Below, in pieces: positions 2,486 through 9,766 of a stretch of 64,000 nt of DNA. The stretch spans positions 434,001-498,000 of the forward strand of contig JAQZBR010000002.1 of the NCBI GenBank assembly GCA_029237775.1. Reading direction: 5' to 3'. Each line of letters starts with the position of its first letter. The stretch's first letter is position 1. Below the pieces are notes generated by a model. The model searched no databases and was not told the DNA's origin. It saw only the letters and a program-made list of their open reading frames with translations. A program made the position numbers and the translations under genes. The DNA is from Bacteroidota bacterium. GTDB lineage: Bacteria; Bacteroidota; Bacteroidia; 2-12-FULL-35-15.

Positions 2486-2491
2486 AAAAAC

Positions 2492-2518
2492 AAAAGATCC
2501 GCTGAGTGCGGATCTTTT
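2492..2518. terminator. Bidirectional terminator between convergent genes
   Basis: Perfect 11-bp stem (AAAAGATCCGC / GCGGATCTTTT) with a 5-nt loop, T-rich on both strands. It lies between stop codons at 2485 (+) and 2522 (-) and serves both genes. Confidence 0.85.
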
Positions 2519-2521
2519 GAT

Positions 2522-3829
2522 TTAAAGCTTAAGGGCTTTCGCATGCCGCGAAGATTTTGCAGGATTCCAGTTGTCTTTATAGGAAGCTTTGAAAAACAGC
2601 TCCTGGATGTAAGCCACGGTTCGTACAATGCGAAGAAAATATCCGAAGTAAATAACCATTAAAGGAAGATAGATCAGAAAATAGCTTACACTTTCATTTT
2701 TCCTGTCCCTGAATAATGAAAAGACAATGAACTTTACGAAATTATTGACTGTGTATAAAAGCAAGTTCATTGGTAAGATAAAGATCAATTGACCGGTAAA
2801 ATTTATGATCATGTCAAACACATAGAAATACCACTTGATATTAAGGATCAGGTTATAAGTGATATTCTCAACAAATGAAATGAAGTTTGAGAAACGGAAC
2901 GAATCATTAGGAAAGAACACATCGCGATGCTTCCTTAATCTGAAACGAATTAACGATTTATCCCAGCGGAGGCGTTGTTTCATTAACTTCTTAAAAGTAA
3001 CAGGAACACTTGTCTGGCAAACCGCAGTTGGTTCAAAGTGGATCTTGTAGCCCAACTTGCGCACTTTTACAGTAATATCTCCATCCAGACCAGGACCTAT
3101 ATCCCAGCCACCTAGCCTGTCAAGAGCTTCTTTACTGAATGCTCCGAATGCCCCGGAGATAACGCGATAGATTCCTAACTCACTGGTAGCAATTCTTCCG
3201 ATAGAGATAGTATCATTATATTCGATCGCCTGAAGTGTTGCACAAAGACTTTCTTTATAGTTCCTTACCTGTACATTTCCTCCAACTGCTCCGATATTCA
3301 GATCATAAAAAAAAGGAACCAGAATATTCTCAATGGCATCCCGATCATACGAACAATCAGCATCCATATGAATGACATACTTTCCCTTCGCGTAGCGTAA
3401 TCCCAGGTTTGCCGCGGAAGCCTTTCCTCCTCGTACATCATTGCGGTAAAAAGCGTCAATATATCCGCTGTTCTTTAAACTCCGGCATATCTGAGGTGTT
3501 TGATCATCAGAGCCATCGTCTATAATTATGAGCTCGAAGTTCTTATATGTTTGTTCTTTTAAAGAATTAGCAAGCTTGTAAATATGTCTTCCCTCATTTT
3601 TACCAGGAACGATAATACTTACAAAAGGTTTCTTTTCCCAAAGTGAAAGGCGCGCATCAGCGACCCGCTTTTTCCGGAAGATTGACGTGAAACGCCATAG
3701 TAGAATTGTGGTTATATCGACTAAGAAAAAACGAAAGAACTCAAAAATGAAAAAGAAATAAAACATACGAAACAGCTTTGCTGCATCAACAGCTGTCATG
3801 TAGTTTATAAACTCATCCAGGAATCTCAT
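2522..3829 (-). CDS. Processive family 2 glycosyltransferase (exopolysaccharide synthase-like)
   Basis: 435 aa membrane glycosyltransferase of the BcsA/PgaC/HasA type. A hydrophobic N-terminal segment (about 18-46) precedes the GT2 core. Visible motifs: VSIIVPGKNEG (70-80), DDG (104-106), the metal-binding DAD (156-158), an LDGD in the place of the TED acceptor motif (248-251), and QRLRW (285-289), the signature of processive synthases. Two or three further membrane segments follow (about 325-410), as expected for a polymer channel. It is the last gene of the leftward operon from 8447, starting directly after the preceding stop. The context (regulator, HlyD-like adaptor, TolC-like channel) points to synthesis and export of a surface polysaccharide; which sugar cannot be read from sequence. 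Confidence 0.88.
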   Translation of the reverse strand: MRFLDEFINYMTAVDAAKLFRMFYFFFIFEFFRFFLVDITTILLWRFTSIFRKKRVADARLSLWEKKPFVSIIVPGKNEGRHIYKLANSLKEQTYKNFELIIIDDGSDDQTPQICRSLKNSGYIDAFYRNDVRGGKASAANLGLRYAKGKYVIHMDADCSYDRDAIENILVPFFYDLNIGAVGGNVQVRNYKESLCATLQAIEYNDTISIGRIATSELGIYRVISGAFGAFSKEALDRLGGWDIGPGLDGDITVKVRKLGYKIHFEPTAVCQTSVPVTFKKLMKQRLRWDKSLIRFRLRKHRDVFFPNDSFRFSNFISFVENITYNLILNIKWYFYVFDMIINFTGQLIFILPMNLLLYTVNNFVKFIVFSLFRDRKNESVSYFLIYLPLMVIYFGYFLRIVRTVAYIQELFFKASYKDNWNPAKSSRHAKALKL

Positions 3830-5260
3830 TTAAGCAAACAGATCTTTTGTAAGTTCCTGCAGTTGACTTTCTGCCTTATTGTGAGGGTTCAAGATCTTCA
3901 CCTTATAAATGATGGTAACTTTGAATGCATTAAAATTATTTAAGATCAGGTTCTCAATCAAAATGCTCAAATGCATCATTTGCTGCTCAGCCTGCATTGC
4001 ATCTGTGTTGATAAGGCAAAGGTATAAAGTGGAAGAATTCTCAAAAGCAATAAAATCGGATGGCTTGATGTTCTCTCTGATCACACGTACAAGATCCTCA
4101 AGTAATTCCTTCTGCGCTCTTTTTCCGATCTGATTATATAACTCAAAAATATTTTCAAGATGAACGAGAGCCAGAGTTGTCTTTTGCAACTGATTTTCTT
4201 TGATACGTTCCAGCTCATAATGCAACATCACTTTCAGAGTAGGCATGTTAATGGTTCCGAATATATCTTCGATTTCCTGCCCGGTTGAAAGGAATCCATT
4301 TGTTGCAGCTGAACGTCCCTTTTTTGTTAGCTTGTAAATATTAATCGATTTCGGAACAAGATACTGAACATCAACATCCTGCTCACAGGAAATACATTTT
4401 GCCTTTACAAAAAAGTCCTGGAAATTATTATCGCAATTATTGCAGTGATGTATAATGGAAGGCTTGTCGTAATCCACACCTATGTGGCGCAAGGCCTTGT
4501 TACATTTCGGGCAGGTAAGTGTATTGTCGATCGGGTTCTTGAAATCAGAGATTGGCCCGATGAATGCGCAAGGAAAGTGATGGATCAGGTCTTCTGACTT
4601 TGAATTAGACGAATTACAATGAGGACAAACCTCACGATAACTTAAGAACCCACTGCTGCAATGATTGCAGAGATATACCCTTTCATGAAAATCAGGCCAG
4701 ATCAAACCTTCTCTTTCTGCCCATTCAAGAATATCCAGCACCTGTGCTTCCTCATCGTTATCAAAATTCACAGAGATCTCGGGATATGTATAACCAATGA
4801 TCGAATGAAGATCGACAAAAGGTTTGAGTGTGCGCAGATCCCTTGTGTACATAAAATTAAGCACCTTTTTGATAGCCTGGGCTTCAAACGAAGGGATCAG
4901 CTGGTAATCAAGCTGTGTTGTTTTATAAAAAATATGCTTGGCTGTTTCTGCGATCTCTTTTATCTGGTCATACGAATATACCAGTCCATCATGTAAATAA
5001 TTCAGAATTGGATCTTTCGATACTTTGTAATTGATCAGAAAAATAGGTTTAAGATAAAACTCCGGATTATAATGCGCCCGGATCTTTTTAACGATAAACC
5101 TCGCAAATTCTGCATCTTTCGCGTCAACCACTACAGCATCATATCCCATAAGATGCTCGATCTTAAGGTTGCTGTTGTTATCCATAATATAAAATATAAT
5201 GTTATTATATTCTATCTTATTATCTCTTACCTCAATTTTGCCTTCAGTTATATCTGGCAT
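3830..5260 (-). CDS. TackOD1 zinc-domain protein with degenerate GGDEF domain, likely regulator of the exopolysaccharide operon
   Basis: 476 aa, cytoplasmic. Residues 1-115 resemble a receiver-like domain. The middle (about 120-310) is a TackOD1-type metal-binding domain with paired cysteines at 198/201, 212/215, 250/253, 273/276 and 289/292, the IHHF and LRHIGVDYDKP motifs, and a short helical N-part. The C-terminus (about 340-470) aligns by eye with a GGDEF domain (LALVHLENIFELYNQIG, then ELLEDLVRVIR), but at the GGDEF position the sequence is ENSST (407-411), so cyclase activity is not expected. It may bind a ligand or nucleotide or act as a scaffold (inference). It is flanked without gaps by the HlyD-like and GT2 genes. 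TackOD1 was named from archaeal signal-transduction proteins. Confidence 0.75.
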   Translation of the reverse strand: MPDITEGKIEVRDNKIEYNNIIFYIMDNNSNLKIEHLMGYDAVVVDAKDAEFARFIVKKIRAHYNPEFYLKPIFLINYKVSKDPILNYLHDGLVYSYDQIKEIAETAKHIFYKTTQLDYQLIPSFEAQAIKKVLNFMYTRDLRTLKPFVDLHSIIGYTYPEISVNFDNDEEAQVLDILEWAEREGLIWPDFHERVYLCNHCSSGFLSYREVCPHCNSSNSKSEDLIHHFPCAFIGPISDFKNPIDNTLTCPKCNKALRHIGVDYDKPSIIHHCNNCDNNFQDFFVKAKCISCEQDVDVQYLVPKSINIYKLTKKGRSAATNGFLSTGQEIEDIFGTINMPTLKVMLHYELERIKENQLQKTTLALVHLENIFELYNQIGKRAQKELLEDLVRVIRENIKPSDFIAFENSSTLYLCLINTDAMQAEQQMMHLSILIENLILNNFNAFKVTIIYKVKILNPHNKAESQLQELTKDLFA

Positions 5261-5263
5261 TTC

Positions 5264-6340
5264 TCAATATTTAAATTTACTGATGGTTACACTCATTTTA
5301 TAGAAAGCGCGCCAATGTTCATAATCACTATCGTTCACAGGATAAATATCTGCAGAGATCGTCCTGGTAGTTGGCTCGTATCTTTTCTGAAACTCATCAG
5401 GCAATGGATATGTTGCATAGTAAAACCGTTTAATAATTCCCTGGCTTACACTTCCATCAGGAAAGGTTAGCTTCATGATATCGCCCTCCTTAAAATAATT
5501 GAGGTCTTCCTGCTCAAAGAAAGCTTTCACAAACATCGGAGTGTTTTTATGGATCGCCATGATCTGTTCCGACTTCAGAGCAACTTCGTACTGATGTGTA
5601 TATAAACGTGTTATGCTTCCATCTATGGGTGAATAGAAAACCCTTGGCGTATTCTCTTCATCATTGCCCGCACCGCTTAATGATCCGTTTTTCACATTTT
5701 TAATTCCCGAACTCCGCGCCATTCCTGCCAGCTGTGATATCAAGCCATTGAGCTGCTTATTCTCACTATCAATTTTTTCTATATTTGTTTTAAGCCGTAA
5801 TATTTCGTTCTGAACAAATTCCAGGCGGTTCTTCGGAAGCACATCAAGAACAACTTCATTTTGGAGTCGCTGCAACTCACCCTGATAGCTTTTTATCAGT
5901 GATTGAGATTCAACCTTGTCAATGTTGTTAAATGCAATTCTCTTCTTCAGGGCATACTTTTCTTTCTCTATCCAGTCCCATTCATTACTATAAGCGGTTG
6001 AACCGAAACTCCCTAACAAAGAAGAATTTCCCCACACATTATCTTTATCCAGGGCATAAGTAAATAACGAATCCCCCACTTTCACGGTGTCACCCTCTTC
6101 TTTGTGATATTGGAGGATCCTGCAATCATCGGTTAAACGAATGCTTACATTTTCAAACAATACTTGACCGTCTGCTTTAATAAAAAAGACTTTATTGATC
6201 AGGTAATAACCCAGAAAGCCCAGAAGCAGCGCCAGAAACACAACATAGACCACGCGGTCCCAGTTATATTTGACTTTACGGACTTCATCGCTCATCACGC
6301 GAATTGCAGCACCTTTTCTTTTAAAATCTAAGCTTCTCAA
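5264..6340 (-). CDS. HlyD-like membrane fusion (adaptor) protein
   Basis: 358 aa. A cytoplasmic N-terminus, one membrane helix (about 29-52), then a periplasmic adaptor. A biotinyl-lipoyl-like half motif is seen near ILQYHKEEGDTVKVGDSLF, a coiled-coil hairpin at about 125-205, the second lipoyl half near VFYSPIDGSITRLY, and a beta-barrel region containing FFEQEDLNYFKEGD. Family knowledge: such adaptors connect an inner-membrane machine to a TolC-like outer-membrane channel, and Alg44 of the alginate system has a comparable periplasmic part. It sits 13 nt after the TolC-like gene and 3 nt before the TackOD1 gene, so the four genes are surely co-transcribed. No ABC or RND pump is present, so the partner is probably the GT2 synthase. 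Confidence 0.82.
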   Translation of the reverse strand: MRSLDFKRKGAAIRVMSDEVRKVKYNWDRVVYVVFLALLLGFLGYYLINKVFFIKADGQVLFENVSIRLTDDCRILQYHKEEGDTVKVGDSLFTYALDKDNVWGNSSLLGSFGSTAYSNEWDWIEKEKYALKKRIAFNNIDKVESQSLIKSYQGELQRLQNEVVLDVLPKNRLEFVQNEILRLKTNIEKIDSENKQLNGLISQLAGMARSSGIKNVKNGSLSGAGNDEENTPRVFYSPIDGSITRLYTHQYEVALKSEQIMAIHKNTPMFVKAFFEQEDLNYFKEGDIMKLTFPDGSVSQGIIKRFYYATYPLPDEFQKRYEPTTRTISADIYPVNDSDYEHWRAFYKMSVTISKFKY

Positions 6341-6353
6341 AATTTATAGTTTA

Positions 6354-8447
6354 TTACTTATCACCTCCAACATTCAACTCATCCAGTTTGATAAAAGATC
6401 CGAGATCATGCATTGCAAACCGGGTTGTATTCAAACCTGCAGATAATTCCGTGATCAGCTTTTCAAATTCGTTCCTGTTTTTAAAATCGGCAGCACGTAA
6501 AGCAATCACTGTGCGGTTGGCGGCATTTGAAAATTCCTCTTTCACTTTCCTTGTTATAAAATCTGCATCAGCATGTTCGTATGCCATCAAATAAACATTA
6601 TCTGATAACTCATATATCTTTTTGAGAGTTTCTTCCGGATAAAAAACAGGTATAGAAACATTTAGCTTTAATCCCTTTGATGAACAAAGGCTTTTTGCTT
6701 TGCCAAGCAAGGCAATGTAATTAGTGAGATGCTCCTCCTTTTTTTCCTGCCAGTCAGCAAGAGTATGTGGTTCAACATCCAAATGAAGGGCAACGGTCTT
6801 ACTTAGATCCAATCCGCTCAACGTTTTTTCCATATGGTTTACAGGATCCTTGTCAGAGAGAAGTTCGTTGCTCCCGATCATCACTTCCGTTGTAATCCCC
6901 GCAGCCGAAAGCTTCGAGATGACAGCTGAAGCTTGCAATTTATTCTGCCCATCCTTTCTCACGGAGATAATTGCATTCGATATTTTATTTAGGTGAAGGT
7001 ATTCAAGAATATAATTCTCATCATATTTCATTTGCACATCAGACCAGATATAAATCGACCTATCGAGAATTGCACCCGGGATTTCTGATCTGTTCACTGA
7101 AAATTCCTTCACCAACGATAAGACATCGGCATCCGGAGTTTTCGTGATCAGATCCAGAAGCTGTAAGTACATTTCCTGCTGGAGATCGAGCATTTCAATT
7201 TCAACTGACAGCATCTCGTCCAACAGATTAAGCGCTGTCACCGGGTTAAATTCAAGATCGTTAAACTTTTCCTTAACACGCTCTATGCGGATAAGCTCCT
7301 CATACTTTTTATGTTTCTCATAAAAATTATTGTATTGTTTAAGCTTATATCTAAACTCATATACTGAATTTATGATTCCCGAATTTTGTTCTGTACCTGC
7401 TATCTTCTGATCAAACCTGATCAGATCCATTTTCGTATTTACTACATCACGACTTGCTTTAGAACCAAGCGGCAGAGGAACCGAAACACTTAAACCGGCT
7501 GAGAGGAAATCACGGTTAGAAAGGTTAGCATTAGTAATATCATAGTAATTATATCGTACCTGTGTTTTCAGATTGATCTCTTTCCAAAATTTATTTTCCA
7601 GCTCAAGGTTCTTCTGTAATAGCTTGAGAATGCTGTCGTTCCCATTATTGTACGAAAAGTTTTGCAGTCTTTCAATATCCAGGTCGAACAAAGGAAAAAT
7701 ATTTACCGGGATTGCCTGCGCTTTGAACTCATTTTTCAATTGGTCGTTGTACGCACGGTAGATCTGAAACATGCTGCTCACGTCAACTTGTTGTTGAATG
7801 ATCTGCATCAGGTCGAGTTTTTGCAAGTGCTTCATCAGATACAATTCGTTTGCGACATCCAGCTTGTCATCAATGATCTGCTGCCTCTCTTCAAGGAGCT
7901 TTATTTTATGAGTGTTAAAAGCAAAAATGATCTTATGCGATATATTCAGATAATCACTTGCACTTATTTTAATAGCCGGCTTCAGGGAATTAATGATTTT
8001 TTCGTTCTTTATGATCTGCTGTTTATACCTGCTGCTCAGGTAGCCGTCAGCAAGAATATTCCAGTCGAGGCCGGCTTGTAAACGTCTGTTGTAAACCAAT
8101 TCATCATCGCCCAAGCCCGGATTAAAATTTTGCTGGTAACTCCCGACCGCTGAAAGGCCAAAATTTAATTTCTCCTTTTTTAATCTGGCTTCGTCATAAG
8201 CATTCAGATAACCTGTTCGGGAATTTGCATCGCTGTTTACTTTATAGAGATCAGATATAATGGAAGTGTTTTCGAACTTTGGATGTCGGTTAGATAGTTC
8301 ATTGTATTTCTTCCAAAAGCCTTCAAGAGTATTAATCTTTGAGCTTATTACTGAATCTTTGTAAATTCTTTGCTGAGAATAGGAATGGCCAAAGAACACA
8401 CAAAAAAAGTGCAGGGCAATCAAACGAATTGCTTGTGTTCTGATCAT
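6354..8447 (-). CDS. TolC-like outer membrane channel fused to a glycosidase-like TIM-barrel domain
   Basis: 697 aa, first gene of the leftward operon. A signal peptide ends near residue 25. Residues about 60-445 form an outer-membrane efflux protein (TolC family) with two repeats of amphipathic strands and long coiled coils (for example SAGLSVSVPLPLGS in the second). Residues about 460-697 form a separate domain resembling a glycoside-hydrolase barrel: strand ends AIISVRKDG, TTEVMIGS, ALHLDVEPHTLADW (D557, E559 as possible catalytic acids), LKLNVSIPVFYP and NVYLMAYEH, recalling GH18-like folds. Ordinary TolC proteins lack this tail. Inference: the barrel trims or edits the exported polysaccharide. 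The exact glycosidase family is not assigned. Confidence 0.75.
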   Translation of the reverse strand: MIRTQAIRLIALHFFCVFFGHSYSQQRIYKDSVISSKINTLEGFWKKYNELSNRHPKFENTSIISDLYKVNSDANSRTGYLNAYDEARLKKEKLNFGLSAVGSYQQNFNPGLGDDELVYNRRLQAGLDWNILADGYLSSRYKQQIIKNEKIINSLKPAIKISASDYLNISHKIIFAFNTHKIKLLEERQQIIDDKLDVANELYLMKHLQKLDLMQIIQQQVDVSSMFQIYRAYNDQLKNEFKAQAIPVNIFPLFDLDIERLQNFSYNNGNDSILKLLQKNLELENKFWKEINLKTQVRYNYYDITNANLSNRDFLSAGLSVSVPLPLGSKASRDVVNTKMDLIRFDQKIAGTEQNSGIINSVYEFRYKLKQYNNFYEKHKKYEELIRIERVKEKFNDLEFNPVTALNLLDEMLSVEIEMLDLQQEMYLQLLDLITKTPDADVLSLVKEFSVNRSEIPGAILDRSIYIWSDVQMKYDENYILEYLHLNKISNAIISVRKDGQNKLQASAVISKLSAAGITTEVMIGSNELLSDKDPVNHMEKTLSGLDLSKTVALHLDVEPHTLADWQEKKEEHLTNYIALLGKAKSLCSSKGLKLNVSIPVFYPEETLKKIYELSDNVYLMAYEHADADFITRKVKEEFSNAANRTVIALRAADFKNRNEFEKLITELSAGLNTTRFAMHDLGSFIKLDELNVGGDK

Positions 8448-8473: not shown

Positions 8474-8504
8474 CGAAAATAGATAAAAATAGCCAGCTAG
8501 TCAA
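8474..8504 (-). promoter_or_regulatory. Promoter of the exopolysaccharide-like operon
   Basis: On the minus strand a TTG -33 box (8502-8504) is followed after 20 nt by TATTTTCG (8474-8481), seven of eight matches to the Bacteroidota -7 consensus TAnnTTTG. The start codon at 8447 lies about 26 nt downstream. Confidence 0.55.
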
Positions 8505-8555: not shown

Positions 8556-9506
8556 TCAGAGCTTCTTTTCTACAAGATATTTATTACGATCGGATGAATT
8601 TCTGGAAACCAGTTCGCCTAAAAATCCTGCAAGGAAAAGTTGCGTACCAATGATCATTGCGACAAGAGCGATGTAAAACAGCGGCTTGTCGGTAACTTCA
8701 CGGGTGGGAATATGAAAAGCCGACTTATATATTTTTTCGCCAACCAACCATAGTGTGAGAGCGCCACCGGCAAAGAAACTGAGAGTACCGTATAAACCAA
8801 AAAAATGCATGGGTCGCTTACCGAACTTCGACATGAAGGTGATTGACATCAGATCCAGAAACCCATTTATGAAACGTTCGAATCCGAACTTGGTAGTGCC
8901 GTATTTGCGTTCACGATGAGCAACTTCCTTCTCTTCTATCTTTGTAAATCCTGCCCACTTTGCGATTACCGGAATATAGCGGTGCATTTCACCGTAAACT
9001 TCAATGCTCTTTACAACATCTTTTCTATATGCTTTGAGCCCGCAGTTAAAATCGTGAAGATTGTTGATGCCACTCGTTTTTCTGGTTGCCCAGTTAAAAA
9101 GCTTCGTAGGAATAGTTTTACTGATCGGATCGTAACGTTTCTTTTTCCAGCCTGAAACGAGATCATGACCGTCAGTGATGATCATTTTATACAAGTCAGG
9201 AATCTCGTCCGGAGAATCCTGAAGATCTGCATCCATAGTGATGATCACATCGCCCTGAGCAGCTTCAAATCCAACATTCAGAGCAGCAGATTTACCATAG
9301 TTTCTGCGAAACTTGATCCCATGAACGTTTGGGTTCTTCGAGGCGAGGGCTTCAATTACTAACCAGGATCTGTCTTTGCTTCCGTCATCTATAAAAAGTA
9401 TCTCATAGCTAAAACTGGCCTCCTGCATTACTTTCACGATCCAATCGTGAAGCTCAGGCAAAGATTCGTCTTCATTAAAAAGAGGTATGACAACGGAAAT
9501 ATTCAT
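8556..9506 (-). CDS. Polyprenyl-phosphate glycosyltransferase, GT2 DPM1/GtrB type
   Basis: 316 aa. GT2 domain with SVVIPLFNEDESLPEL, LFIDDGSKDRSW, GKSAALNVGFEAA and the metal site MDADLQD, followed by two C-terminal membrane helices (about 240-300) as in GtrB/ArnC-like bactoprenol-phosphate sugar transferases. It transfers a sugar from a nucleotide donor to undecaprenyl phosphate at the inner membrane. The start is placed at the ATG at 9506: the product then begins MNISVVIPLFNE as usual for the family, and a -7 element ends five bases before it. A longer reading back to 9725 would run through the SRP RNA gene on the other strand and is rejected. Confidence 0.9.
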   Translation of the reverse strand: MNISVVIPLFNEDESLPELHDWIVKVMQEASFSYEILFIDDGSKDRSWLVIEALASKNPNVHGIKFRRNYGKSAALNVGFEAAQGDVIITMDADLQDSPDEIPDLYKMIITDGHDLVSGWKKKRYDPISKTIPTKLFNWATRKTSGINNLHDFNCGLKAYRKDVVKSIEVYGEMHRYIPVIAKWAGFTKIEEKEVAHRERKYGTTKFGFERFINGFLDLMSITFMSKFGKRPMHFFGLYGTLSFFAGGALTLWLVGEKIYKSAFHIPTREVTDKPLFYIALVAMIIGTQLFLAGFLGELVSRNSSDRNKYLVEKKL

Positions 9507-9511
9507 TGCAA

Positions 9512-9519
9512 CAAATATA
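9512..9519 (-). promoter_or_regulatory. -7 promoter element, predicted leaderless
   Basis: TATATTTG on the minus strand, an exact TAnnTTTG match, with its last base five bases before the ATG at 9506. Initiation at the usual distance would place the +1 at or next to the start codon. Confidence 0.5.
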
Positions 9520-9636
9520 TACAAATTACCGATGAGCATTAACATCAAGGCCAATAACTCTTCAAAACCTCCGGAATTAAGAACTTTTAACAGCTTATTT
9601 AAAACTGTGTTTTTTCTATGAAAACAAAAATTAAAG

Positions 9637-9666
9637 TCTGCAAATTCAAAAAAATTCCTACTTTTG
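9637..9666 (+). promoter_or_regulatory. Promoter of the SRP RNA gene
   Basis: TACTTTTG at 9659-9666 matches the Bacteroidota -7 consensus exactly. A TCTG at 9637-9640, 18 nt upstream, is a weak -33 box. The RNA 5' end follows about four bases later. Confidence 0.6.
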
Positions 9667-9669
9667 TGC

Positions 9670-9766
9670 GGGGTAAGTCTTATACAAGCAGCTCCCTTTA
9701 ATCCTCCAGGTGCGGAAGCAAGCAAAGGTAACAGGTTGAGCGCTGTGCTATGAGTAGCTTACCCCT
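9670..9766 (+). ncRNA. ffs: Signal recognition particle RNA, small bacterial type
   Basis: About 97 nt. The ends pair (GGGGTAAG 9670-9677 with CTTACCCC 9758-9765). The apical region carries the conserved SRP RNA loop sequence around CCAGGTGCGGAAGCAAGCA (9705-9723), comparable to the E. coli 4.5S GGTCCGGAAGGAAGCA tetraloop and internal loop, and the returning strand contains GTAACAGG. A T-rich run (9766-9776) directly after the closing helix serves as terminator, and an exact -7 element lies just upstream. The RNA binds Ffh and, with FtsY (encoded at 22103), targets membrane proteins. It is too short to code for anything; open frames across it are chance. Confidence 0.9.

Follow-up and report, generated by a model that had tools for sequence, protein, structure and literature searches.

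What does an operon produce, or export, when it encodes a membrane glycosyltransferase together with the tunnel and the adaptor of a TolC/HlyD exporter? The question is raised by four leftward genes at positions 2522-8447 of a 64,000-nucleotide stretch (the window) of a Bacteroidota genome of 4.08 Mb that is 96.6% complete. The original prediction saw in them an undescribed synthase-type exopolysaccharide export operon. In this study I argue that they probably encode a synthase-dependent polysaccharide secretion system, with a GT2 glycosyltransferase where a TolC/HlyD assembly would otherwise have its pump. I infer this function from the conservation of the gene set, from UDP-sugar genes in variants of the operon, from the putative active site in the tail of the channel protein and from the clade to which the GT2 belongs.

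Results

All four open reading frames are located on the reverse strand (8447-6354, 6340-5264, 5260-3830 and 3829-2522), with intergenic gaps of 13, 3 and 0 bp, exactly as first described. In the order of transcription they encode a TolC-like channel with a C-terminal tail, an HlyD-like adaptor, a TackOD1 protein with a dead GGDEF domain, and the GT2. The single promoter that had been proposed corresponds to a predicted element of the Bacteroidota type (TTG-N20-TATTTTCG, 8474-8504, reverse strand; consensus used, TTG-N20-TAnnTT[T/C]G), 57 bp before the ATG of the TolC-like gene. Eight of nine loci from the same genus have a comparable match ahead of this gene; in locus L088 the match is located further upstream, within the neighbouring gene. 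Just past the GT2 stop codon lies a predicted intrinsic terminator (2491-2519, reverse strand), a consensus match with a 12-bp stem followed by a T run, and the four genes are predicted to form one transcript.

The flanks of the operon deserve a brief description. A secreted-looking open reading frame of 188 amino acids on the forward strand (1919-2485) contains three similar repeats of about 55 amino acids and ends at the shared terminator. Further out, on the reverse strand, a CotH kinase protein with a chitobiase C-terminal-like domain (3-1841) is open at the window edge. Relatives of it come immediately after the GT2, in the same orientation, in 18 other loci, with a spacing of 14-87 bp or a short overlap, but I rejected it as a fifth operon gene, as in the window it lies beyond both the terminator and the opposite-strand reading frame. 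Directly upstream of the operon and on its strand is a second, ArnC/PgfS-like GT2 (8556-9725), which occupies this position in other genomes of the genus and was not seen there outside it.

The TackOD1 domain scores over its cut-off in 12 of 394 sampled Bacteroidota genomes, and every one of these carries TolC, HlyD, TackOD1 and GT2 genes in the same order; joint conservation, a point on which the original prediction could have failed, is therefore seen in all 12. When the 394 genomes were searched with the GT2 as anchor, the matches over 680 bits numbered 13 loci and came from the same 12 genomes and no others, and the next best match reached 211 bits; the profile was built from these same sequences, so that its informative part is the absence elsewhere. 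The operon has a patchy distribution within the genus, where 12 of 36 genomes, the window's own included, carry it. Across the named loci of the species-level collection, all four genes are present in 71 of 80 and the other nine are cut by contig ends, so that the arrangement is beyond chance. The TackOD1 and GT2 genes, usually start-stop coupled, are the most constant element of the operon: 96 of 98 pairs are spaced within 100 bp, with a median of -1, a tally in which the overlap of two collections enters some loci twice. One contig (L034 and L035) has the operon twice, at a distance of about 15 kb, once with a UDP-sugar dehydrogenase gene and once without.

The adaptor gene (5264-6340, reverse strand) encodes a protein with one N-terminal transmembrane helix according to its hydropathy. 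Its assignment as HlyD-like holds, marginally, in Pfam (HlyD_3, 22.8 bits vs. a cut-off of 22.2), and its best subfamily model is EmrA/EmrK (36 bits). As type I and tripartite pumps typically include TolC and HlyD proteins, and given this match to EmrA/EmrK, the operon could belong to an ordinary exporter of proteins or small molecules whose pump gene lies at another site, with a different envelope role for the GT2 and the tail. I consider this highly improbable: none of the loci read has a pump gene, such as the ABC transporter of type I secretion, within the operon, and the most constant element is the GT2-TackOD1 pair, which HlyD accompanies across phyla. Nor did the four genes match a characterised exporter of proteins or lipids.

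The channel protein (6354-8447, reverse strand) matches the OEP family of Pfam at 15.7 bits, under the cut-off. Its AlphaFold model (pLDDT 87.5), however, has TolC structures as top matches (Foldseek E 2.5e-11; VIA Z 17.9), and the assignment is upheld for this reason. The TolC-like part is predicted to span residues ~66-440 and to be followed by a TIM barrel (~460-695) of the GH18/PgaB-C type, in agreement with the glycosidase-like tail that had been proposed. The closest solved structures of this tail are PgaB-C (4p7o, Z 18.9) and GH18-fold chains and chitinases (Z ~18-19.5). In an alignment confined to the window and locus proteins, D557, E559, M621, Y623, D654 and D681 are invariant in 56 relatives. 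These residues are located at the ends of barrel strands, and among them the pairs D557-x-E559 and M621-x-Y623 give the D-x-E and M-x-Y of a GH18-type barrel at strands 4 and 6. The tail matches no glycosidase model in Pfam, with no GH18 model at E 1, and instead of the full GH18 motif DxxDxDxE it has the last D and E only, with H555 in place of a D. In its D-x-E pair the tail is nonetheless nearer to GH18 than PgaB is, as PgaB has no counterpart to the second of the two catalytic residues in GH18/GH20 enzymes (PMC5933820). The tail is missing in five loci (L034, L036-L038 and L042), a subclade in which the hydrolase may have been replaced or lost.

The GT2 (2522-3829, reverse strand) matches PF00535 at 103 bits, and its processive-type motifs DD, DxD, GxDGD and QRLRW show little or no variation among 20 relatives; the processivity claimed for it at the outset is thus predicted from motifs. 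Among named families it comes closest to PgaC/IcaA, yet its 177.7 bits fall far short of that model's equivalog cut-off (422.3). In the tree, 24 TackOD1-linked GT2s form one clade (support 99/98), which branches next to, but outside, PgaC/IcaA and apart from BcsA/BgsA. With the CelA model the GT2 reaches 24.7 bits against a cut-off of 699.1, which does not place it among the Bcs synthases, and Pfam finds no PilZ domain in it. The GT2 of a Sinorhizobium arabinose polysaccharide operon scores only 29 bits, and I rejected that operon as a relative. Hydropathy indicates about three transmembrane stretches, compared with five in PgaC, so that a partner helix, perhaps that of HlyD, may be needed to complete a channel.

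These few transmembrane stretches, together with weak matches to NodC (63 bits) and HpnI (38 bits), would also suit a GT2 of the NodC or HpnI kind, whose product, a short oligosaccharide or a glycolipid rather than a long polymer, would be exported by HlyD and TolC. This seems unlikely to me, as the best family match is a polymer synthase, the channel is fused to a fold of the polymer-hydrolase type, and acyltransferase or lipid genes are not recurrent members of the operon. On the other hand, the position of the GT2 branch beside PgaC/IcaA and the PgaB-C fold of the tail could indicate a divergent Pga system that makes PNAG itself. Yet the GT2 stays under the PgaC cut-off and outside the PgaC/IcaA clade, the four operon genes include no PgaD, no PgaA porin and no PgaB deacetylase domain, and the D-x-E pair separates the tail from PgaB; PNAG is therefore a very unlikely product.

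Some loci have additional genes that bear on the substrate. In four loci of family f45, a TviB-like UDP-GlcNAc C6-dehydrogenase (463 bits vs. an equivalog cut-off of 592) is inserted between HlyD and TackOD1, and three of these four also have a DUF4114 lipoprotein (Pfam-checked in one). In two Rhodobacterales operons the last gene is galE. The dehydrogenase-like and galE genes favour a polymer made from UDP-sugars, possibly of the amino-sugar or uronic type, and the polymer may differ between lineages. These genes, the invariant glycosidase-type site and the GT2 clade next to PgaC/IcaA together point to a sugar polymer.

The TackOD1 protein (3830-5260, reverse strand) has a zinc-ribbon core (127-311) with a strong match to PF18551 (175.3 bits vs. 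a curated cut-off of 32), in which the Cys and His residues of the archaeal domain are conserved. The C-terminus (328-476) has a GGDEF fold (Z 18.5), with a Pfam match of 15 bits, under the cut-off, and the GG[DE]EF signature of an active diguanylate cyclase is found in none of 106 relatives, so the description as TackOD1 with a decayed GGDEF domain stands. The N-terminus looks weakly receiver-like; several family f45 genomes encode a similar piece of 109 amino acids as a separate reading frame, and there the TackOD1 protein has a true receiver domain. The original prediction also stated that PilZ and active GGDEF domains are absent, which is correct for the operon and extends to the whole genome: at E <= 0.001, neither family gave a match in the window's genome, whereas control genomes did. 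Regulation by c-di-GMP is therefore unlikely, and I rejected it also in view of the missing signature in all relatives. The coupling to the GT2 suggests instead that TackOD1 is a dedicated regulator. In L034 and L036-L038, response regulators are located directly upstream of the operon and histidine-kinase-like reading frames further out, which suggests phosphorelay control in that lineage. In archaea, TackOD1 is joined to receivers or located in type IV pilus loci, and its function was obscure as of 2018 (PMC5847659); the same output domain is here paired with a GT2.

Discussion

The proposed synthase-dependent system could work as follows. The membrane GT2 would polymerise a UDP-sugar, probably one of the 2-acetamido or related sugars, and extrude the product through the inner membrane. 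With its single helix as anchor, the HlyD-like adaptor would connect the GT2 to the TolC-type tunnel, leaving the GT2 in the position that an ABC, MFS or RND pump has in TolC/HlyD assemblies of other kinds. At the C-terminus of the channel, the hydrolase-like barrel would be located in the periplasm and might trim or clear chains, comparable to PgaB, PelA and BcsZ. The TackOD1 protein would serve as a dedicated switch that works independently of c-di-GMP, by means of its receiver-like, zinc-ribbon and dead GGDEF domains.

How new is such a system? According to the original prediction, the roles of known synthase systems are all filled here by different proteins, and this is only partly borne out: the genes for a TolC/HlyD route are indeed present, but the GT2 is a relative of PgaC and the tail has the fold of PgaB-C. 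Compared with PgaABCD, which makes PNAG, the operon has a GT2 of the same type and a domain with the predicted fold of the periplasmic hydrolase, while a beta-barrel porin, a deacetylase and PgaD are found there and TolC, HlyD and TackOD1 here. Nor is the route itself unprecedented. For the mixed-linkage beta-glucan of Sinorhizobium and Rhizobium, the GT2 BgsA and the adjacent HlyD-like BgsB are thought to form an export path (PMC9495663). The present operon likewise encodes an HlyD-like partner together with its GT2, in one predicted transcript and with one gene in between. However, BgsA groups with BcsA in the tree, so that the operon GT2 is outside the BgsA clade, and BgsA reaches only 42 bits against the operon GT2 profile; BgsA itself binds c-di-GMP, and no TackOD1 or TolC-hydrolase gene is located beside BgsBA in the stretch read. 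In cyanobacteria, a proposed model for cellulose combines XcsA, XcsB and TolC, that is, a GT2, an HlyD-like protein and a TolC tunnel, with an endoglucanase (PMC12430437). This resembles the tripartite arrangement with a hydrolase proposed here, but XcsA, compared by its description, has a PilZ domain that the operon GT2 does not have, in the model strain the genes are not joined in a single operon, the endoglucanase is a separate protein, and TackOD1 is not mentioned. The principle of a GT2 with an HlyD partner is therefore known already. The word undescribed applies to the combination with TackOD1 and the TolC-hydrolase fusion: term searches of open-access papers returned no description of TackOD1 with a GT2 or of such a fusion.

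If the proposed function is true, it adds a widespread and unannotated route of matrix secretion, built from proteins now labelled hypothetical, glycosyltransferase, HlyD family or TolC family, and it offers the first testable role for TackOD1. The operon would also be a compact four-gene model for a polymer synthase that plugs into a TolC tunnel, an idea until now only proposed, for cyanobacterial cellulose.

Whether it represents a secretion class shared across phyla, in which TackOD1 is the c-di-GMP-independent switch of a GT2-HlyD-TolC machine with its own polymer hydrolase and an uncharacterised amino-sugar or uronic polymer, is a more tentative proposal, to which I give slightly less than an even chance. 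In Alpha- and Gammaproteobacteria the order is TackOD1-GT2-HlyD, mostly without an adjoining TolC, so that the tunnel there would be a separate TolC. A plasmid search with TackOD1 gave 17 records, 15 bacterial and two haloarchaeal. In all 15 bacterial records TackOD1 is adjoined by this GT2, and HlyD was confirmed where regions were read; in the one haloarchaeal plasmid read, TackOD1 has no such neighbours. Published HlyD, TolC and sugar clusters on plasmids or in Photobacterium were considered and are unrelated. The 29-kb mobilizable plasmid pKAM329_3 of Aeromonas caviae (L142, 5425-11247) carries TackOD1, GT2, TolC and HlyD, and its TolC protein retains D557, E559, M621 and Y623 at only 15% identity; on such a plasmid the four-gene set can move between strains. 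It is located there beside toxin-antitoxin and partition genes. A Sinorhizobium medicae plasmid (L140, 5839-8430) carries this GT2 and an HlyD-like gene, but of TackOD1 only a fragment, and is possibly a decaying copy of the operon.
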